This document shows, piece by piece, positions 16,131-26,948 of a stretch of 64,000 bases of DNA. This stretch comes from Noviluteimonas gilva (GTDB lineage: Bacteria > Pseudomonadota > Gammaproteobacteria > Xanthomonadales > Xanthomonadaceae). The notes beneath the pieces are model-generated. The model saw only the letters and a list, made by a program, of their open reading frames with translations, had not been told where the DNA came from and did no database searches. Made by a program: the position numbers and the translations under genes. The stretch's first letter is position 1. Every line of letters begins with the position of its first letter. Location: assembly GCF_009740395.1 (NCBI RefSeq), contig NZ_WOXT01000001.1:1174464-1238463 (forward strand). The letters run 5' to 3'.

Positions 16131-16368
16131 GGGCGCCAGTGTAACGATCCTGTTCCCGCAATCCGGGCGATCCGCGCCCGCGAGGGGAGTTCAGGTCACT
16201 GAATGTCTTCTTTCGGTAACCGTGATCGGCGTCCTATTCCATTCGTGAGGTTTTTCACCTTAGACTCGGCTGAACTGAGTTGAAACCGAGACTCGGGTCA
16301 CAGGGGTTGGGGTCTACGCATCGCAGGGAGCGGCGCGGGGCTTCGTAAAAAATTATCAGGGGAACAAC

Positions 16369-19300
16369 TTGAAGATCGATCGCACCCGTGCGAGCCGCAA
16401 GGCCGCCCGTCGCTACAACGTTTCTCCCGTCGCGCGCGCCGTTCGCTCCGTTCTCACCATCTCCGCCGCCGCCCTGATGTTCTCGGGCACCGGCGTCGTC
16501 CTCGCGAAGTCGCCGGTCGTTGCGCCGCTCCCCATCGAGCGCGCCAGCCTGTCGCATGAATTCGCGAAGGTCGTCGACCTGACCCGCGTCGCGGACGAAT
16601 GGACGCCCAAGAGCGTCGTCGACGAAGAATTCGAGTCTTTCGCAGCGCCCATGGGCGTTGCGCAGACGTTCGCTGCAAGCGCGACCGTCGAAGCCTTCGG
16701 CCTGGTCGACGATCTCACCGTGCTGCCCGGCTCGTTCCATCCGGGCCCGGGTGGCGTGAGCGGCAGCGACGATTTCATCGGCTACAACGCCGCCAACTTC
16801 CCCGGCACGTACGGGTATGCGTGGGGCACCGCGACCGGCACGTCCACCACCGGCTTCGCGGACGGCTTCTTCGTTTCGACCGCTGGCGACTTCCACACCA
16901 ACAACCACGCGACGATCGACGTCACCGGCTACACATGGGCCGCGGGCTTCGAAGTGGAAACCGGCGGCAATGCGCTCTTCGACAACAACGTGTCGGTCAG
17001 CGCAACCGCGACCGGTTACGACAGCATCGCCTTCGGCGTGTACCAGGTCGCCGACGGCAGCTCGACGATCAACAACAACAGCACGCTCAATGCGACGGCC
17101 AGCGGCGAATCCTCCACGGCGATCGGCGCGTACGCGCTGGGCTTCGGCGGCGACGCGAGCACGACCAACAGCGCGACCGGCACGATCACCGCGACCGGCT
17201 CGGGCCTGGGTTCCGACGCGACCGGCATGTACGCCGCCTCGCTCGACGGCAACGCGAGCGGCAGCAACGCCGGCACGATCACGGTGTCCGCGGATTCCGG
17301 CAACGCCATCGGCGGCAACGCCTTCTCGATCTACGGCGACGCCACGCAGACCAACACCGGCACGCTGGTCGTCAGCGGCTACAACGCCACCGGCCTGTAT
17401 GCCTATTCGATCTACGGCGATGCGCTCGTCGACAACGACGGCACGCTCAAGGTCGACGGCACGAACACCGCCCAAGGCGGCTGGGCGAAGTCGTACTACG
17501 GCAACGCGACGGTCGACAACGGCGCGACCGGCGTGGTCAACGTCAACGGCACCTACGGCGCGGCCGGCCTGATCGCCGGTGCATACTACGGCACCGCGAC
17601 GGTCGCCAACGCGGGCAGCGTCAGCGCGAATTCGGATCTGGGCGTGGCGCGCGGCGTGTTCGCGTACGGCGACTCGGCCGTCGTGACCAACGCCGGCACC
17701 GGCACGATCAACGCCAACGGCAACCTGCAGGCGATCGCCATCGATGCCGAAGGCCTCCGCGGCGCGACGGTCACCAACGACGGCGCGCTGACCGCGACGT
17801 CCAACGGCGACGCGATCGGCGTGTGGGCGACGAGCTACGGCGACAGCGGCGTGACCAACAACGGCAGCATCGACGTCGACGCCATCAACGGCATCGCGTA
17901 CGGCGTCTACGCCGGTGGTTACAACGCGTACGTGCGCAATTTCGCGAACATCGATGCCGCGTCGGTCTATGGCGACGCGATCGGCGTCGGCGTGGGCGGC
18001 GTGTACGCCTTCGCGCAGAACGACGGCCTGATCAACGCCAACGGCGGCTCGGCCGGCGTGGGCATGTTCGGTTACGGCGTGGTGTCGGCGAACCTCAACA
18101 ACACCGGCACCATCAACGCCACCGCCAGCGCGACCGACGGCTTCGCGGCCGGCATCCTCGCCGTCGGCGACGCGGCCGGTTCGTACAACGGCGGCACGAT
18201 CACGGCCGTGGGCGCCTACGCCACCGGCATCGACATTCGCGCGACCAGCGACGGCTCGGCCGTCAACGTCAACCAGGTCATCGTGCGCGGTGGCGACGTC
18301 ACCGGCATCAGCGTGCGCGCCAGCGGCGAAGGCGGCACGGCCAACGTCCTGAACTACGGCGTCGTGGATGCCGAAGGCGACCTGTTCGCCGTCGGCGTCG
18401 CGGCGGTCGCGCGCGGCTATCTCGGCACGGCGAGCGTCTACAACGGCGGCAGCGTCTACGCCTCGGCGAAGTACGGTTCGGCGCAGGGCATCGTCGCCTC
18501 GGCCGACATGGACGCGTCCGTCGACAACCAGGGCAGCCTGGTCACGCTCGGCGGCGACAGCGCCTACGGCATCCTCGCGCTGTCGGCCGACGGCGACGTC
18601 ACCGTCGACAACGGCTTCCAGATGGCCACCGTCGCCAGCAACCGCGGCTACGGCATCGCGTACGGCATCGCCGCGCAGTCGAACAACGGCCTGGTCACGA
18701 TCAACAACGACGGCCAGATGATCACCGTCGGCGATTCCACCGCGATGGGCATCTACGCCTCGACGAAGTGGAACGACGTCGAGGTCACCAACAGCGGCCA
18801 GCTGTATTCGGTCTCCAAGTACGGCGGCGCCACGGGCGCGATCGCGATCACCTACACGGGCGACGCGAACGTCTCCAACGGCGAATACGGCCAGGTCATG
18901 GTGCAGGGCGGCTACTCGGCCGGCGGCCTGCGCGCGATCTCGCTGTACGGCGATGCGAACGTCACCAACGACGGCGACGTGCAGACCACCGGCGGCGTGC
19001 TCGACCGCGGCCTGACCGCACGTTCGCTGTACGGCGGCACCGCGACGATCACCAACAACGGCACCATCTCCACCGAAGGCGGCTACAGCTCCTACGGCGT
19101 GTGGGCGCGTTCGGATTACGGCGACGCCACGGTGAACAACATCGGCGGCATCGAGTCGTACTCGGCGTACGGCGTGGCCTACGGCGCGCTCGCCGGCGGT
19201 GCGTACACCATCAGCATCGACAACAGCGGCGACATCCGCGCCTACGCTGCGGATACCGCGGCCGGCGTGCTGGCGTACTCGGTGGCCGGCGATGCGACCG

Positions 19301-22300
19301 TCGTCAACAGCAACTACCTCCTCGGCGTTGCGGGCAACGCGGCCTACGGCGCGCAGGTCATCGCGAATGCCGGCACGGCGACGCTGACCAACACCGCCGA
19401 CGGCCGGATCGTGGCCAGCGGCTACAACGTCGCCGACGCGGTGTTCGCGTCCGGCGCCGTGGTGAACGTCACCAACGACGGCACGCTGATCGCGGATGCG
19501 GACGGCTGGGCCGCGGGCATCGAAGCGGTCGGCGGCGACATCAACCTCGTGTCGAACACGGGTGCCGACATCTCCGCCTACGCGTACTCCGGACGCGCCA
19601 CCGGCATGTTCGCCAGCGCCGACGGCGATGCGACCGTGCGCAACGGCGGCGCCATCGACGCCGAGTCGGACGCGGGCGATGCGTTCGGCACGTTCGCGCA
19701 GGCCGGCGGCAACGCGGTGCTCACCAACGGCGGCGCGCTCAACGCGACCTCGCACCACGGCAACGCCTTCGGCATGGTCGGCATCGGCTACAACGCCGAC
19801 CTCAGCCAGAGCGCCTCGATCACGGTCAGCGGTTACGGCACGGCGGTCGGCATCGAAGGCGTGGGCTACGCGCACGCGAACATCATCAACAACGGCGATG
19901 TCTCGGTGACGGCGGTGTCCGGCATCGCGGCGGGCCTGTACACGTACTCGGTGCACGACACGCGCCAGGTCAACAACGGCACCATCGACGTGCACGCCGG
20001 CAGTGGCCGCGCGTTCGGCATGTATGCCTACGGCTTCGATGACGTGGAGCTGGTCAACCGCGCGGGTCGTTCGATCACCGCATCGGTCGACAACGGCACC
20101 GCCTACGGCATGTATGGCTACGGCGGCCGCACGATCCTGACCAACGACGGCGCGATCGACGTCACCTCCGGCGACGGCGCGGCGATCGGCATGCTCGGCT
20201 TCGGTTACGAAACCAGCAACGTCTCCAACGGCGAAACCGGATCGATCCTCGGGCACGCCAACCAGGTGCTCGGCCTGATCTCCGCCGGCGACGTCGCGAC
20301 GGGCTCGAACGCGGGCGACATCTCGGTGCACGGCGGCCAGCTCGCGATCGCGATGCAGGGCGCCGGCATCGACGAAGACAGCACGGTGTCGCTGTACAAC
20401 ACCGGCACGCTGTACGCCAACGTCTCCAACAAATACGGCACGGCCGCGGGCATGGTCGGCAGCGCCGACGGCGACGTGCACATCGACAACGCCAATGCGA
20501 TCGACGTGCGCAACGGCCGAAACACCTACGGTGTGCAGGGCCGTTCGGAATACGGCACCGTTTCGATCGACAACAGCGGCGCGATCACCAGCTACGGCAC
20601 CCTCTTCAACGGGGCCGCGTTCGGCATCGAAGCGTCGGGCTACGGCGGTGTCTCCGTCGATTCCTCCGGTTCCATCGTCGTCGAAGGCAAGTACGCCACC
20701 GGCATCCGGGCGATCTCCGAAGGCGGCGACGTCACGGTCGACAACTCCGGTTCGATCGAAGCGGGCGGGCTCGTGCGCCAGGCGCTGGGCATTCTTGCGA
20801 TCACCGATGCGGGCGACGCCACGGTCACCAACTCGCACAGCGTGACGATCGAGGGAACCGCAACGGGCTCGGGGGTCACGGGCATCATCGCCGGTTCGTA
20901 CAACGGCACCGCCACGATCCACAACGTCGATGGCGCGACGGTCACCACCACGTCCGAGTACGGCAATGCCGGCGGCCTGTACGCCTTCGGCCCGGACGTC
21001 ACGATCGACAACGGCGGCGACGTGCTGGTCAGCGGCGGTCTCTCCGCGGTCGGCGTCGGGTTCGATTCGGACCACGCCACCATCGTCAATGGCGGCACGA
21101 TCACCGTCGCGCAGACCGGCGGCAGCGCACCGCAGCCGCCGACCCTGACCGTCAACCCCGGCAACGGCATCGGCATCGCCGGTTACGTCGGCGATGGTGG
21201 TTCGGCGCATGTCACGAACGATGGTTCGATCGATGTCGCGGCGCTCGATTACGCCTTCGGCATCAAGGTCGACGGAGCGGGCGACGTCACGATCGACGGC
21301 ACGGGTTCGATCAACGTCGGCGGGCAGACTGCGCTGGGCATCTACGTGGAAGCGCTGACGGTCGACATCACAACGGGCGAAACGCTTTCGGCCCATGGTT
21401 CGAATGTGGCGCTGGGTGTGTCCGCGTACGGCAACGAAGTCGCGATCCACAACGCCGGAACGACCGACGTATATGCGAGCTTCCACGCGGTCGGTCTCCA
21501 GGGCATCGGTATCGACGACGTCGCGATCGACAACAGCGGCGATTTGCTCGTGTACTCCTACGGCCACGAGGCGACGGGCATCTCGGCGCTCTCCGGCGCG
21601 CACGCGACCGTCGACAATGCCGGCGATATCTCGGTCTCCATCGGCCAGGGCGGCGACGGCGAAGCGTTCGGCATCCACGTTCGGAGCGGCGGGTACGGCG
21701 CGGTGGTGAACGGCGGAACGATCACCGTCGACGCCTCGGCGATGCCGCAGGACGGGCTCGCCACCGGCATCTTCGCGCTGGGCGAAGCGGCGGTGAACGT
21801 CGACAACACCGGCGACATCACGGTGACCGGCGCCTACACGGCGACCGGCGCCCACGTCTGGGGTCTCGATGCAAGCTTCCACAACGCCGGCGACATCACC
21901 GCGACCGGCCGCCGTGCCGCGGTCGGCGCGCACGTGGACGCCGGGACTGCCGACTTCGACAACGCCGGCGATATCACCGCCCACGCCTACCTGGCCTACG
22001 GCGTCCTCGCCTTCGGCGACGACCTCACGCTCATCAACGGCGGCGACATCACGGCGACCGCAGAGCTCAGCGCGATCGGCCTGGGCGCCCTGGGCGACGA
22101 CCTCATTACCGCGAACAACACGGGCGACATCTACGCGATCGCCTACCAGGGCGACGCGATCGGTGCATTCGTGCAGTCGTACGGCAACGTCGACTTCGTC
22201 AACGGCGGCTCGATCACCGCGCACGCCGCGGGCGAAACCATCGGCCTGGAAGTTCGCGCCGAAGACGCGCACGTGACCAACAGCGGCCTCATCGGCGCCG

Positions 22301-24087
22301 TCCACCAGGACTACGCCATCGCGCTGGACCTCGATGTCGTCGGCAACGCCACGGTCGACAACGTCGGCGACATCGTCGCGCAGGCCTCCGAAGAAGGCAG
22401 CATCGCCATCCACGGCGGCGACGGCTTCGACCTGGTCACCAGCAGCGGCTCGATCTCCGGTGCGCTGTTGATGGGCGCGGGCGACGACCGCTTCACCAAC
22501 GCGGCCGGCGGCACGTGGATCGTGCGCGGCCACGCGACCGACTTCGGCGACGGCGACGACGCCATCGTCAACGGCGGCACTATCGTGCTGCACGACGCGG
22601 CGATCAGCCTCGGCGGCAACAGCGCGACGGGCAACAGCTTCGCCAACAACGGCCTGATCTCGGTCCGCGGCGACAGCCTGATCGACATGGGCACCGGCAG
22701 CCCGGCGCCGCTCGCGGGCAACAACGCCCCGATCGACGTGCTCAACCCGGTCGCCTTCACCAACAACGGCACGATCAGCTTCCTCGACGGCGCGCCGGAC
22801 GACGTGCTCACCGTCACCGGCGGCGACTTCGCCGGCCAGGGCGCGCTGGACGTCGACGTCTCGCTGCTCCACGGCACCAGCGACATGCTGTACATCGACG
22901 GCAACATCGCCAGCACCTCGGTGCAGACGCTGAACGTCAACGTGCTCGACCTGCTCACCAGCGCCACCGAGATCGACATCCCGGTCGTGGTGGTGGAAGG
23001 CGAGTCGACGGAGAGCAACGTGCAGGCGGGCAACATCATCGCCGGCAACGTGAACTTCAACGCGAACAACTTCCTCGACCTGAAGGTCGGCGTGAAGACG
23101 CACCTCAACGCCGACAACAGTTCGGTCGACATGTTCTCGCTGACGCTGGGCTTCGGTGGCCTCAACGACACCGGCGCCATCGCCACCGCGATCGCCCCGG
23201 GCGCGCACAGCCTGATGGCGGCGCAGGTCGGCACGTTCCGCCAGCGCATGGGCGTGTTCTCGCAGCTGGGCGACAGCGACAAGGGCGCGTGGGTGCGCGT
23301 GTTCGGCGACAAGGGTTCGATCACGCCGGATGCGCAGCTCGACAACCTGCCGGCGACGAACAACTTCGCGTTCGACCAGACCAACCAGGGCGTGGAAGCG
23401 GGCGTCAACGCGCTGGTCACCGATGGCTTCTTCATCGGCGCCAGCCTGTCGAAGTCGCGCGGCAAGCAGGACCTGTCCAACGGCTTCGGCAGCGACGACA
23501 TCGACGGCACCACCGTCGGCGGTTACGTCACCTGGCTCGGCCAGAACGGCATGTACGCCGACGTCTCGTACCGCTGGATGCATTTCGACGCCGACATGAC
23601 CTCCTTCGGCGGCCAGCGCGAAGTGGGCGGCGACGCCGGCGCGATCAACGCCGAACTGGGTTGGAACGTGTGGACCTCCGCCGGTGGCATGAAGCTCGTG
23701 CCGCAGGTGCAGTACACCCGCACGAAGGTCGAGAACATCGATCGCATCGAAGGCGACCTGGCGGACTTCGTTTCCGAAGGCGGCACGTCCTCGCGCGCCC
23801 GCCTGGGCCTGGAGATGGAGCAGACCTTCCAGTCGGCCTCGGGCACGAAGTGGACGCCGTACGGCGTGGTCAGCATCGTTCGCGAATTCGACGGCGAGAC
23901 CAGCTTCACCGTCGCCGACACGTTCAGCGGTCGCATGAGCACCGAAGGCACCAGCGGCCAGCTGGAGTTCGGCGTGAACGCGAAGATCGGCGAGCGCGTC
24001 GACGTGTGGGGCGGCCTGAACTACCTCGACGGCGGTGCCATCGACGGCGTGTGGGGCGGCCAGCTCGGCATTCGCTACACCTGGTAA
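16369..24087 (+). CDS. Giant autotransporter (type Va), 2,572 residues
   Basis: The start is TTG at 16369 with AGGGGA about 6 nt upstream. The N-terminus is an extended, basic signal peptide cleaved near residue 46 (after GVVLA). From about residue 178 to 2010 the passenger consists of some 60 repeats of 27-33 residues with the pattern A-x-G-[IV]-x-A then YGDA-x-V-x-N-x-G-x-[IL]-x-A, typical of a right-handed beta-helix. A short Pro-rich interruption (APQPPTLTVNPG) occurs near residue 1590. Residues 2017-2280 form a non-repeated passenger end with DGGDGFD-like and GAGDDRF stretches. The autotransporter beta-barrel covers about 2285-2572 and ends in RYTW, the aromatic terminus needed for outer membrane insertion. 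Function is unknown; adhesion or aggregation is likely by architecture. There are no Cys residues and no protease triad that I can see. Confidence 0.9.
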   Translation: MKIDRTRASRKAARRYNVSPVARAVRSVLTISAAALMFSGTGVVLAKSPVVAPLPIERASLSHEFAKVVDLTRVADEWTPKSVVDEEFESFAAPMGVAQTFAASATVEAFGLVDDLTVLPGSFHPGPGGVSGSDDFIGYNAANFPGTYGYAWGTATGTSTTGFADGFFVSTAGDFHTNNHATIDVTGYTWAAGFEVETGGNALFDNNVSVSATATGYDSIAFGVYQVADGSSTINNNSTLNATASGESSTAIGAYALGFGGDASTTNSATGTITATGSGLGSDATGMYAASLDGNASGSNAGTITVSADSGNAIGGNAFSIYGDATQTNTGTLVVSGYNATGLYAYSIYGDALVDNDGTLKVDGTNTAQGGWAKSYYGNATVDNGATGVVNVNGTYGAAGLIAGAYYGTATVANAGSVSANSDLGVARGVFAYGDSAVVTNAGTGTINANGNLQAIAIDAEGLRGATVTNDGALTATSNGDAIGVWATSYGDSGVTNNGSIDVDAINGIAYGVYAGGYNAYVRNFANIDAASVYGDAIGVGVGGVYAFAQNDGLINANGGSAGVGMFGYGVVSANLNNTGTINATASATDGFAAGILAVGDAAGSYNGGTITAVGAYATGIDIRATSDGSAVNVNQVIVRGGDVTGISVRASGEGGTANVLNYGVVDAEGDLFAVGVAAVARGYLGTASVYNGGSVYASAKYGSAQGIVASADMDASVDNQGSLVTLGGDSAYGILALSADGDVTVDNGFQMATVASNRGYGIAYGIAAQSNNGLVTINNDGQMITVGDSTAMGIYASTKWNDVEVTNSGQLYSVSKYGGATGAIAITYTGDANVSNGEYGQVMVQGGYSAGGLRAISLYGDANVTNDGDVQTTGGVLDRGLTARSLYGGTATITNNGTISTEGGYSSYGVWARSDYGDATVNNIGGIESYSAYGVAYGALAGGAYTISIDNSGDIRAYAADTAAGVLAYSVAGDATVVNSNYLLGVAGNAAYGAQVIANAGTATLTNTADGRIVASGYNVADAVFASGAVVNVTNDGTLIADADGWAAGIEAVGGDINLVSNTGADISAYAYSGRATGMFASADGDATVRNGGAIDAESDAGDAFGTFAQAGGNAVLTNGGALNATSHHGNAFGMVGIGYNADLSQSASITVSGYGTAVGIEGVGYAHANIINNGDVSVTAVSGIAAGLYTYSVHDTRQVNNGTIDVHAGSGRAFGMYAYGFDDVELVNRAGRSITASVDNGTAYGMYGYGGRTILTNDGAIDVTSGDGAAIGMLGFGYETSNVSNGETGSILGHANQVLGLISAGDVATGSNAGDISVHGGQLAIAMQGAGIDEDSTVSLYNTGTLYANVSNKYGTAAGMVGSADGDVHIDNANAIDVRNGRNTYGVQGRSEYGTVSIDNSGAITSYGTLFNGAAFGIEASGYGGVSVDSSGSIVVEGKYATGIRAISEGGDVTVDNSGSIEAGGLVRQALGILAITDAGDATVTNSHSVTIEGTATGSGVTGIIAGSYNGTATIHNVDGATVTTTSEYGNAGGLYAFGPDVTIDNGGDVLVSGGLSAVGVGFDSDHATIVNGGTITVAQTGGSAPQPPTLTVNPGNGIGIAGYVGDGGSAHVTNDGSIDVAALDYAFGIKVDGAGDVTIDGTGSINVGGQTALGIYVEALTVDITTGETLSAHGSNVALGVSAYGNEVAIHNAGTTDVYASFHAVGLQGIGIDDVAIDNSGDLLVYSYGHEATGISALSGAHATVDNAGDISVSIGQGGDGEAFGIHVRSGGYGAVVNGGTITVDASAMPQDGLATGIFALGEAAVNVDNTGDITVTGAYTATGAHVWGLDASFHNAGDITATGRRAAVGAHVDAGTADFDNAGDITAHAYLAYGVLAFGDDLTLINGGDITATAELSAIGLGALGDDLITANNTGDIYAIAYQGDAIGAFVQSYGNVDFVNGGSITAHAAGETIGLEVRAEDAHVTNSGLIGAVHQDYAIALDLDVVGNATVDNVGDIVAQASEEGSIAIHGGDGFDLVTSSGSISGALLMGAGDDRFTNAAGGTWIVRGHATDFGDGDDAIVNGGTIVLHDAAISLGGNSATGNSFANNGLISVRGDSLIDMGTGSPAPLAGNNAPIDVLNPVAFTNNGTISFLDGAPDDVLTVTGGDFAGQGALDVDVSLLHGTSDMLYIDGNIASTSVQTLNVNVLDLLTSATEIDIPVVVVEGESTESNVQAGNIIAGNVNFNANNFLDLKVGVKTHLNADNSSVDMFSLTLGFGGLNDTGAIATAIAPGAHSLMAAQVGTFRQRMGVFSQLGDSDKGAWVRVFGDKGSITPDAQLDNLPATNNFAFDQTNQGVEAGVNALVTDGFFIGASLSKSRGKQDLSNGFGSDDIDGTTVGGYVTWLGQNGMYADVSYRWMHFDADMTSFGGQREVGGDAGAINAELGWNVWTSAGGMKLVPQVQYTRTKVENIDRIEGDLADFVSEGGTSSRARLGLEMEQTFQSASGTKWTPYGVVSIVREFDGETSFTVADTFSGRMSTEGTSGQLEFGVNAKIGERVDVWGGLNYLDGGAIDGVWGGQLGIRYTW
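16900..22420 (+). repeat. Coding tandem-repeat array of the autotransporter passenger
   Basis: About 60 degenerate units of 81-99 bp encode the beta-helix repeats. Recurrent DNA words include variants of AACAACGGC, GGCGACGCGA and ACGATCACC. Units differ clearly from each other, so the array is old rather than freshly expanded; spacing is not perfectly constant (27-33 codons). Confidence 0.8.
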
Positions 24088-24097
24088 CCGCATCGGT

Positions 24098-24119
24098 CCC
24101 GGCGGCTGTCGCCGCCGGG
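24098..24119 (+). terminator. G+C hairpin after the autotransporter gene
   Basis: A 9-bp stem CCCGGCGGC / GCCGCCGGG with a TGTC loop lies 11 bp after the stop codon. It has no T-run, so read-through into the next gene is plausible. Confidence 0.45.
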
Positions 24120-24227
24120 GCCCATTCAGTCGGAACACCCCCCGCATGGGGAGCAGAAAGCGCTGGCTCCCGGCGCGGAAATCGATTCAACTGTCCCGCT
24201 CGCGAGAGGGGACATCTGGAGAAGTTC

Positions 24228-25400
24228 GTGGCAACCAGCAAGAAGACGCCCGGCGGCAACAAGCCCGCCGCGCAGGCGCCTGAGGCGCCCGCCGCAGACG
24301 CCGCGGCAAAGCCGGCCCAGAAGCCGCCGCTCGACCTCACCCAACTCAAAGTCGAAAAGAGCTGCTCGCGCGGCCTGTCGACGTGGTTGTCGAGCAACCG
24401 CGTTTCGCTCGCGATCTCTTCCTACCAGACCGGCCGCGTCTACCTGGTCGGCAGCGACCAGCAAGGTCGCGTGTCGTTCTTCGAACGCATCTTCGAACGC
24501 GCGATGGGCATCGTCGGCAACGCGCAGCGCATCTATCTCGGCGGCCTGTACCAGTTGTGGCGCTTCGAGAACGTGCTGCGCCAGGGCGAGGTCATCCACG
24601 GCAAGTTCGACAAGTGCTACGTGCCGCGCAACGCGCAGACGATCGGCGATCTCGACATCCACGAGCTCGGCATCCGCAGCGATGGCCGCGTGGTGTTCGT
24701 CAACACCAAGTACTCGTGCCTGGCCGAGCTGAGCACGACGCACAGCTTCAAGCCGATCTGGAAGCCGAACTTCATCAGCAAGCTCGCGCCGGAAGATCGT
24801 TGCCATCTCAACGGGCTGGCGATGGTCGACGGCAAGCCGAAGTACGTCACCGCGGTGTGCAAGTCCGACGCCGTCGACGGTTGGCGCGACCGCCGCATGA
24901 ACGGTGGCGTGGTGATCGACGTGGAGACCGACGAGATCGTCTGCGAAGGCCTGTCGATGCCGCACAGCCCGCGCTGGGCGAACGGCAAGCTGTGGGTGCT
25001 CAACGCGGGCACCGGGCATTTGGGTTACGTCGATTTCGCGACGAAGTCCTTCGTGCCGACCGCGTGGTTCCCGGGCTTCCTGCGTGGCTTGTCGATTGTC
25101 GGCAACGTCGCGGCGGTGGGTTTGTCGAAGCCGCGCAACCAGCGCTTCGAAGGCCTGCAGCTGGACGAAGAACTCAAGAAGCGCGACGCCGAACCGTGGT
25201 GCGGCGTGCAGATCGTGAACCTGTCCAACGGCGACGTGGTCAACTGGATCCGCTTCGAAGGCGACATCAGCGAAATCTTCGACATCAGCTTCCTGCCCAA
25301 TGTCGTCAACCCGATGATGATCGGCCTGCGCACGGCGGAAATCCGCGAGCTGATCACCTTCGAACCCGAGCAACAGTCGCAGTCCGAGGCGCTCGCATGA
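24228..25400 (+). CDS. TIGR03032 family protein of unknown function
   Basis: I place the start at GTG 24228, with GGAG 6 nt upstream, giving 390 residues. The first 35 residues are Ala/Pro/Lys-rich. The rest resembles the TIGR03032 (DUF4915) family: SSYQTGRVYLVG, then LYQLWRFEN, HGKFDKCYVPR, HELGIRSDGRVVFVNTKYSCLA, CHLNGLAMVDGKPKYVTAV, MPHSPRWANGKLWVLNAGTG and FPGFLRGLSIVGNVAAVGLS. The repeated short strands suggest a beta-propeller, which is inference. No signal peptide is seen. It follows the autotransporter by 140 bp on the same strand, and the EF-hand gene overlaps it by 4 nt. Confidence 0.75.
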   Translation: MATSKKTPGGNKPAAQAPEAPAADAAAKPAQKPPLDLTQLKVEKSCSRGLSTWLSSNRVSLAISSYQTGRVYLVGSDQQGRVSFFERIFERAMGIVGNAQRIYLGGLYQLWRFENVLRQGEVIHGKFDKCYVPRNAQTIGDLDIHELGIRSDGRVVFVNTKYSCLAELSTTHSFKPIWKPNFISKLAPEDRCHLNGLAMVDGKPKYVTAVCKSDAVDGWRDRRMNGGVVIDVETDEIVCEGLSMPHSPRWANGKLWVLNAGTGHLGYVDFATKSFVPTAWFPGFLRGLSIVGNVAAVGLSKPRNQRFEGLQLDEELKKRDAEPWCGVQIVNLSNGDVVNWIRFEGDISEIFDISFLPNVVNPMMIGLRTAEIRELITFEPEQQSQSEALA

Positions 25401-25831
25401 ATCGCCGCATCTTCGTCGCCGTCGCATTGATGGTGGCCGCGCCCGCGTTCGCGCAACAGGCCGCCAAGCCGGCGCCGCAGCCTGCGTTGCAGGGCGGCCC
25501 CGACGCGACCTTCGCCGCGTGGGACAAGGACGGCAACGGCACGTTGTCGAAGGACGAATTCCGCGCCGGCTGGCTGGCCACGCGCGAGGACCTCGCGCTG
25601 CGCCGCCTGCGCACCGAGTTCGCGCGCCACGACGCCGACAAGAGCGGCAAGCTCGAAGCCGGCGAGTACGCCAAGCTCGCGCTCGTGCAGCGCGCGGGCA
25701 CGTCGGCGCCGGCGATGACGGCGTTCGACAAGGACAAGGACGGCGGCTTGCAGTTCGCCGAGTACCTGGAGTTCGTGAAGGTCGCAGGCGCGCAGCAACA
25801 GCCACGCGCGGCCGCGCCGAAGGCGAAGTGA
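25397..25831 (+). CDS. Exported EF-hand calcium-binding protein
   Basis: The 144-residue protein has a signal peptide (cleaved after VAAPAFA, about residue 19) and three EF-hand loops: [12 protein letters not shown] near residue 43, [12 protein letters not shown] near residue 78 and [12 protein letters not shown] near residue 115. The first and second loops are canonical 12-residue calcium sites. The C-terminus is Gln/Ala/Lys-rich. It overlaps the TIGR03032 gene by 4 nt (ATGA) and is 2 bp from the next gene, so the three genes are co-translated. A periplasmic calcium-buffering or sensing role is inferred. Confidence 0.85.
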
Positions 25832-25833
25832 CG

Positions 25834-26385
25834 ATGGCTTATTCGATCGTTCCCGTCTGGCGCAACGTCACGCCGGAATTGCAGGCCGAGCTCGTCGACT
25901 TCTGGATCGGCCACAAGGCGATGGCCGACGCCGAGCGCGCGAAGCTGCGCGCGCAGCAGGCCGTGTGCGTGTTGCGCGATGCCGACGGCGCGCTGTGCGG
26001 CGTGGCCACGGCCTTCGTGCAGGTGCGCCCGCGCCTGCGCCAGCCGATGTACTACTTCCGCCAATTTATTGCTCCAGAGCATCGCCGGCAGCAGCAGGCG
26101 ATCCCGATTTTCAAAGCCGCCTGCGAAATCCTCGAAGCGGCCAATCGTGCGTCGCCCGAATGCCTGGGCGTGCTGATGGAGATCGAAAACCCCGACCTGG
26201 CGCGGATCTTCTCGCACGTGGTCGGCGCCCGCACGGGTGCGGTCTTCCTGGGCTACTCCCCGCGCGGCCACCAGCTGCGGGCGGTGTATTTCCAGGGCGC
26301 CAAGCTCTTCCAGCCTGCGCCGCTGCGCCGCCGCCAGGCCGCGCCGGGCCTCGCGAAGACCCCCGAACAAGCCCCAACCGCCTGA
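25834..26385 (+). CDS. Unrecognised protein, possibly a GNAT-like acyltransferase
   Basis: The 183-residue protein has a strand-helix pattern like a GNAT fold: [20 protein letters not shown] at the N-terminus, [20 protein letters not shown] in the middle, then [18 protein letters not shown], which resembles an acyl-CoA loop without the classic glycines, and a C-terminal [17 protein letters not shown]. The last 25 residues are Arg/Ala/Pro-rich. It is the last gene of the unit that begins with the TIGR03032 gene. I cannot assign a substrate; possible roles include modification of one of its co-encoded partners. Confidence 0.6.
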
Positions 26386-26403
26386 TTTCACGGGGGGTCC
26401 GAC

Positions 26404-26432
26404 TTGCGGTGCCTCCGCGGCGCCGCTATGAT
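26404..26432 (+). promoter_or_regulatory. Sigma-70-type promoter of rplM-rpsI
   Basis: TTGCGG at 26404-26409 and TATGAT at 26427-26432 are separated by 17 bp. This would start an mRNA with a leader of about 80 nt before rplM. No obvious L13-binding structure was identified in the leader. Confidence 0.7.
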
Positions 26433-26519
26433 TCCGCCTCTTTTGTTCCGCCCTACATCGCGCGGCAACCTTCCGGCGTCCCCGGAACAAGCCCGACCAT
26501 GTACCAATCGAGTCACGCA

Positions 26520-26948
26520 ATGAAGACTTTTACCGCCAAGAACGAGACCGTCCAGCGCGACTGGTACATCGTCGACGCCGAAGGCAAGACCCTCGGCCGC
26601 CTCGCCACCGAGCTCGCACGCCGCCTCCGTGGCAAGCACAAGCCCGTTTACACGCCCCACGTCGATACCGGCGATTACCTCGTGGTGATCAACGCCGAGA
26701 AGATCCACGTGACCGGCCGCAAGCTGCAGGACAAGATGTACTACCGGTTCACCGGTTACATCGGCAACCTGAAGTCCGAATCCCTCGGCCAGGCGCTCGA
26801 GCGCCACCCCGAGCGCGTCATCGAAACCGCCGTCAAGGGCATGCTGCCCAAGAACCCGCTGGGCCGTGCGATGTATCGCAAGCTCAAGGTCTACGCTGGC
26901 CCGAATCATCCGCACACGGCCCAGCAGCCGCAGCCCCTGGACATCTAA
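26520..26948 (+). CDS. rplM: 50S ribosomal protein L13
   Basis: The 142-residue length equals that of E. coli L13. The N-terminus [20 protein letters not shown] and the core [20 protein letters not shown] are diagnostic, and the C-terminal [13 protein letters not shown] is conserved. It is a large-subunit assembly protein. rpsI follows 9 bp downstream, the universal gene pair. Confidence 0.98.

Follow-up and report, generated by a model that had tools for sequence, protein, structure and literature searches.

A giant open reading frame, described in an earlier note as an autotransporter of 2,572 residues with about 60 short repeats, raises the question of what such a protein is for and whether it acts alone. 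We examined the frame in its surroundings within the window (the whole 64,000-nucleotide stretch of DNA that was analyzed) and in related genomes. The autotransporter as such is ordinary. What is new is a conserved cassette in which it is joined by a protein of family DUF4915, a partner that lies outside the coordinates considered in the earlier note and is absent from it; the interpretation offered there is partly supported. Features are collected in Table 1.

Table 1. Features of the autotransporter locus, in window coordinates
Feature	Position	Strand	Remarks
GTGA-N6-TCAC palindrome, possible CRP/Clp-type operator	16245..16258	+	110 bp upstream of start
Antisense open frame, 2630 aa	16255..24147	-	probably a side effect of codon usage
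Ribosome-binding site AGGGG ahead of TTG start	16358..16362	+	invariant in 4 species
Giant type Va autotransporter, gene 1 of cassette	16369..24087	+	2572 aa, TTG start
Putative signal peptide, extended and basic (residues 1-46), with core motif SPVARAVR	16369..16506	+	sequence by eye
Passenger made of 67 repeat units of ~28 aa (residues 146-2137)	16804..22779	+	autocorrelation and iterated HMM
Pro-rich break, residues 1585-1600	21121..21168	+	composition
PF03797 autotransporter beta-barrel	23287..24018	+	profile matches; protein ends in RYTW at 24084
Gene 2, DUF4915/TIGR03032 protein, 390 aa, GTG start	24228..25400	+	profile matches
Gene 3, EF-hand protein, signal-peptide-like N-terminus	25397..25831	+	PF00036, 52.7 bits
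Gene 4, 183-aa protein, uncharacterized family, alternative GTG start at 25828	25834..26385	+	no family match

The autotransporter and its repeat passenger

The autotransporter is confirmed as a real gene, and the coordinates and length first reported were both recovered, on the plus strand. The start context, AGGGG-N6-TTG followed by AAGA, is identical in the window and in three orthologs from the genus at the same locus, all four sharing the stretch ATCAGGGGAACAnCTTGAAGA; the TTG start is therefore credible. The type Va layout holds as well. Passenger and barrel form one uninterrupted chain in a single open frame, which begins with a basic and hydrophobic stretch, visible by eye and conserved between species, runs on through the repeats, and ends in a barrel whose last residue is Trp. 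The cleavage site was placed by eye, and a motif related to the signal peptide is matched by a regular expression in 21 of the 32 autotransporters found paired with DUF4915 (see below). The N-terminal 244 residues gave no Pfam match at E<=1, neither to the ESPR, for which Pfam includes a model, nor to any other family. In a scan of the C-terminal 295 residues, the barrel scored 102.6 bits against PF03797 (cut-off 26) and 128.6 bits against TIGR01414 (cut-off 16); scans of the whole protein returned neither model, but the genome search did recover the barrel. Pfam and NCBIfam scans of the whole protein and of its pieces detected no enzymatic domain, as the earlier note had stated. The palindrome GTGA-N6-TCAC, which may be a CRP/Clp-like site, occurs five times in the window against 0.76 expected; the copy upstream of the autotransporter is kept in three of four species of the genus and is broken in G004.

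Autocorrelation of the passenger peaks at 28 residues (z 5.1), and 59 of the 67 units found by an iterated HMM score above 5 bits, 49 of them above 10 bits, in good agreement with the original estimate of about 60. Because the HMM was trained on the same protein, shuffled passengers serve as the control, and none of 50 yielded a unit above 5 bits. Searched with TRF (minimum score 40), the DNA showed periods of 12-18 bp only and no array at the repeat length. The units have therefore diverged, and their description as diverse rather than identical is borne out. The passenger has no Cys and carries 185 Asp and Glu residues against 41 Lys and Arg, for a net charge of about -144. Four of its ten Pro residues fall at 1588-1597 (1588, 1590, 1591, and 1597) and four more at 2112-2127, so that the Pro-rich break reported near residue 1590 exists, but is not the single one. 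The homolog in G002, a species of the genus, also has a Pro-rich spot at the position of the break. A search of the PDB at E<=0.1 found no sequence match to the passenger, nor did the passenger pieces match the AIDA-type family. Judged by its sequence features, the passenger is most likely a long acidic repeat solenoid folded as a right-handed beta-helix. A beta-helix rises 0.48 nm per rung, and 67 rungs would thus give a fiber of about 32 nm, which may act as an adhesin or aggregation factor.

A relative was found in all five of the genus genomes examined, the window's own included. These proteins measure 2572, 2555, 3007, 2291, and 1843 residues and contain 67, 68, 80, 58, and 36 units, respectively, as counted with the profile trained on the window protein. 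All five large alignment gaps relative to G004 (26, 27, 29, 52, and 82 residues) are close to one to three units in length, as are three of the nine relative to G001 (28, 29, and 78); the other six, of 32-44 residues, are not clearly so. Length differences between species therefore appear to consist partly of whole repeat units. Identity to G002 is 65% in the passenger and 90% in the barrel, while identity to G001 and G004 is 42-45% and 67-68%, respectively. By these comparisons the passenger evolves faster than the barrel.

A four-gene cassette and its insertion site

The autotransporter is followed, in order, by genes for a DUF4915/TIGR03032 protein, an EF-hand protein, and a 183-residue protein. 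Gene 2 scores 441.4 bits against PF16261 (cut-off 35) and 432.6 bits against TIGR03032 (cut-off 251.5). No signal peptide is visible in it by eye, and DUF4915 is therefore probably cytoplasmic. An ATGA overlap joins genes 2 and 3. A scan of 24060-26600 for plus-strand terminators, which has little power, found none. Gene 4 has no match in Pfam or NCBIfam (E<=0.01) or in PHROGs, and its profile finds none in the PDB. Only one of 21 members of its family matches PF00583 (GNAT), weakly (E 0.014), and comparison with the GNAT domains fused to DUF4915 (described below) gave a non-significant hhalign probability of 0.2%; on present evidence gene 4 is not assignable to GNAT. The alignment used, A4, holds 21 of 26 copies, the five omitted being those with short matched segments only.

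In the genus the cassette lies between coq7 and rplM. The autotransporter adjoins coq7 and speD in four of the five genomes, while the copy in G003 is located elsewhere; this species has no gene 4, and no EF-hand gene beside its copy. In all 73 named loci that have both coq7 and rplM, the gap between the two is 134-1787 bp (median 225). The surroundings of speD in 80 named genomes, up to 10 kb on each side, contain no barrel, DUF4915, EF-hand gene, or gene 4, so the site is empty there, a result that says nothing of the gene content elsewhere in those genomes. The stretches of up to 9 kb examined beside DUF4915 in other genera contain no coq7 and no rplM. Found at different sites in different genera, the cassette thus behaves as a unit, but signs of vertical descent are present too. 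The two ends of the insertion were compared for direct repeats that might mark a scar; the longest exact match is 8 bp and no clear scar emerges.

Distribution in the family

DUF4915 occurs in 40 of 198 genomes of the family, as 43 genes, all of whose surroundings were examined. Thirty-three are close to the window protein (phmmer E <1e-150) and ten are distant. An autotransporter frame lies upstream on the same strand at 32 of the 33 close genes, in one instance 1.8 kb away, the exception being locus L178; none of the ten distant genes has one. At the 33 close loci, EF-hand genes and gene 4 are each found 26 times and all four genes together 24 times, and neither companion was found at any of the 32 other DUF4915 loci. 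Gene 4 is present in 31 of the 198 genomes, all of them among the 40 with DUF4915 (Fisher 1.7e-28), in a search that scored up to 18 first-look candidates per genome. In five genomes of genus g26, gene 4 and DUF4915 are on different contigs.

The window's own genome has one DUF4915 gene only. Three further autotransporter frames were seen there, L024 (C1:383 kb), L025 (C4:235 kb), and L001 (C6:40 kb), with open frames of 1544, 3795, and 829 residues, the first showing 39% identity to the C-terminal part of the window autotransporter. As there is but one DUF4915, these three are unpaired.

DUF4915 beside other giant proteins and fused to enzymes

Beyond the family, DUF4915 was detected in 42 of 398 sampled genomes of the phylum (37 above the cut-off, the window's own included), and DUF4915 proteins are present in Pseudomonadota, Cyanobacteriota, and Planctomycetota. 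We found no paper on DUF4915, TIGR03032, IPR017481, CHP03032, or PF16261 in PMC full text, a scope outside which most subscription papers lie. Among 32 DUF4915 loci not paired with an autotransporter in the manner of the window (the ten distant loci and 22 taken from the 42 matching phylum genomes), eight have an open frame of at least 1200 residues on the same strand within 1.5 kb, compared with 0 of 80 for speD and 0 of 76 for coq7. The remaining 24 have no giant neighbor within that distance, in a count where some stretches end at contig ends and a giant 2.3 kb away at L215 was left out. Nine giants were inspected, including one at a greater distance; they are periodic and contain little Lys, Arg, or Cys. 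Two have a PF03797 barrel (68 and 106 bits), two others that were tested contain FG-GAP and RTX repeats, one of these with cadherin as well, and one giant has Ig-like matches.

A similar association is seen on plasmids. Of 15 named records with DUF4915, whose neighbors were read from an incomplete gene table, 12 have a large surface-type protein adjacent or one gene away, a count that has no control set. Five of these neighbors are annotated as autotransporters (in Novosphingobium sp. P6W, two N. resinovorum, Phyllobacterium, and Loktanella), and the rest are cadherin, VCBS, FG-GAP (two), Ig-like, and choice-of-anchor Q (two) proteins. The exceptions are Qingshengfaniella, a record that breaks off at this point, and Diaphorobacter, where a large IPTL-CTERM protein one gene from DUF4915 was not counted.

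Domains fused to DUF4915, or encoded next to it, are those of modifying enzymes. Fusions to TPR together with a GT9-like domain occur at L188 (where the Pfam GT9 match is below the curated cut-off), L193, L195, and L260, to GNAT at L255, L257, L261, and L262, to GT2 also at L262, and to TPR-GT41 at L256 and L262. A TPR-GT41 gene follows DUF4915 at L215 (318 bits) and L219, and in Diaphorobacter a sulfotransferase gene with an Asp/Asn hydroxylase domain precedes it. The window cassette itself contains no glycosyltransferase, and its genome has no GT41 and no BAHT (TIGR04414), with one GT9 away from the cassette.

We built a tree of 53 rows, comprising the window, 15 of the 31 other paired loci, 12 of the 15 plasmid records, and 25 further loci. 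Within it, 25 rows form a clade (support 100/99) that includes 22 with an autotransporter neighbor and three without, compared with 0 of the 28 rows outside it, and that spans, among others, the window's family, Novosphingobium, Phyllobacterium, and Loktanella. One branch of DUF4915 is therefore tied to autotransporters, while other branches stand beside other giants or none. Alignment A1 was made from 34 sequences. Invariant Asp, His, Cys, and Arg residues of DUF4915 fall in motifs that include DRCHLNG, MPHSP, and WR, and these polar motifs suggest an active site. A beta-propeller fold was considered for DUF4915, but the PDB profile matches are non-significant (soluble quinoprotein glucose dehydrogenase, E 0.29).

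Several further settings of DUF4915 were observed. Named phage records contain none, while IMG/VR viral contigs supplied one locus and eight loci; relatives at L226-L234 from that source lie in some cases, by eye, beside phage structural genes, and at L229 and L231 a giant open frame adjoins DUF4915 on the opposite strand. At L196, L197, and L224, DUF4915 is near small proteins with a start resembling phage tail collar (the PF07484 match was checked in L197 only), and at the latter two also near large repeat proteins. L205-L209 (family f47) have no giant neighbor within 1.5 kb.

Proposed modification of the passenger and alternative explanations

The presence of DUF4915 beside giant surface proteins suggests an unrecognized way of preparing them for export. 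Because its frequent companions are very long surface proteins and the domains fused to it are modifying enzymes, modification of the passenger is the most economical reading. As we envisage it, DUF4915 would be a partner protein in the cytoplasm that serves giant surface proteins specifically, and in the window's clade autotransporters. It would act on the passenger before Sec export, being either an enzyme itself or the component that binds the substrate within a modification complex. The product of gene 4 would be a second cytoplasmic factor, specific to the cassette, and the EF-hand protein would be a factor that is secreted and depends on calcium. The type Va passenger would then be displayed as a fiber some 30 nm long, making contact with cells or surfaces. 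Our data establish the type Va layout, the repeats, the cassette and the co-occurrence of its genes, and the link of DUF4915 to giants and to modifying enzymes; we infer the modification itself, the agent that makes it, the locations of the proteins, and the adhesin role. To the reading as a whole, in which the autotransporter heads a cassette that works as a unit, DUF4915 modifies the passenger before export, and gene 4 and the EF-hand protein serve as factors, we assign a probability of roughly one half. A broader proposal is tentative, and we hold it at a shade under even odds: that a cytoplasmic system, so far undescribed, modifies giants of any secretion route prior to export, with DUF4915 as its shared core, to which lineages recruit their own enzymes (GT41, GT9-like, GT2, GNAT, sulfotransferase), with one clade dedicated to autotransporters. 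The window would then hold a compact form that changes sites and has a lineage-specific fourth protein.

The main rival to modification is that DUF4915 handles these proteins without altering them, as a dedicated cytoplasmic chaperone or export-timing factor outside any modification pathway. Type V giants and those with FG-GAP, RTX, cadherin, or Ig-like repeats could indeed share a need for the handling of very long chains, and a protein without a visible signal peptide would be suitably placed to provide it. A chaperone, however, does not lead one to expect GT41, GT9-like, GT2, and GNAT domains, or a sulfotransferase with an Asp/Asn hydroxylase domain, in fused or adjacent positions, nor polar motifs as strongly invariant as those of DUF4915, and we consider this explanation unlikely.

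It might also be that the autotransporter is an ordinary adhesin and that the other three genes of the cassette are vertically inherited neighbors with no functional link to it. Autotransporters do occur unpaired in the same genome, and distances between DUF4915 sequences correlate with those between barrels (Mantel r 0.54, with 0 of 2000 permutations as high), as common descent would give; the two share their nearest neighbor in 16 of 32 cases. Vertical descent thus appears to account for part of the co-distribution. Yet the genes flanking the cassette differ in other genera, G003 has it at a separate site, the pairing with annotated autotransporters recurs in alphaproteobacterial plasmids, and gene 4 without DUF4915 was seen in none of the 198 genomes, with at most 18 first-look candidates scored in each. 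Absence of any functional link is accordingly improbable.

That the passenger is glycosylated by a known BAHT heptosyltransferase or HMW1C-type NGT, with DUF4915 incidental, is very improbable, as the genome encodes neither TIGR04414 nor GT41, the passenger pieces lack an AIDA-type match, and N-x-S/T sequons, depleted in G004 (z -3.1), are not enriched in the passenger, leaving HMW1C-type N-glycosylation unsupported.

A different kind of alternative concerns the opposite strand, where the 2630-residue antisense frame might be a second gene overlapping the autotransporter. The frame is fully open in G000, G002, and G003, and the coding parts of six homologous genes have one antisense stop (TTA, CTA, or TCA) where about 12 are expected from other window genes, which ranks it with the strongest of the depletions observed; with 5' extensions the six have 4 against 20 expected. 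For the window gene alone, however, only about 2.2 antisense stops are expected, so that finding none is unremarkable (a rougher gene set gives 3.8, P 0.02), and G004 has an antisense stop inside the gene. Other codons ending in A are also depleted (ACA 4 against 27, GGA 23 against 76, CCA 0 against 5), although in the six genes mostly less so than the antisense stops. This depletion mostly explains the openness. The frame most likely arises as a side effect of codon bias, and we give a second gene hardly any credence.

Comparison with known systems

Like the type Va autotransporters pertactin, AIDA-I, and Ag43, the window protein joins a putative signal peptide, a repeat passenger, and a barrel with an aromatic last residue in one chain. 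It differs from them in its passenger of about 2000 residues, made of 67 diverged units without a family match, in giving no match to ESPR, and in heading a DUF4915 cassette. A 2021 review counts two mechanisms of glycosylation for type V passengers, both cytoplasmic (PMC8151025), and the BAHT and NGT enzymes concerned are described there and in a second paper as modifying their own substrates before export (PMC4358343, PMC8151025). AIDA-I and TibA, with the BAHT enzymes Aah and TibC, likewise place an autotransporter beside a gene for a cytoplasmic protein. The window's genome, in contrast, has no BAHT, and the partner, a member of a different family, is usually downstream in the window's clade. 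HMW1A and HMW1C (an NGT of family GT41) again combine a giant adhesin with a dedicated cytoplasmic enzyme, and GT41 is fused or adjacent to some distant DUF4915 proteins. The genome of the window, however, has no GT41, its passenger is not enriched in sequons, and its autotransporter is type Va, whereas HMW1A is type Vb.

Gene 2 is a clear member of TIGR03032/PF16261 (DUF4915), a family filed under unknown function. If our reading is correct, a family that carries only that label would acquire a function, and a system built on DUF4915 would add to the ways in which type V passengers are prepared, besides those of AIDA-I and HMW1A. DUF4915 would, moreover, form a connection between type V proteins and giant surface proteins of other kinds.
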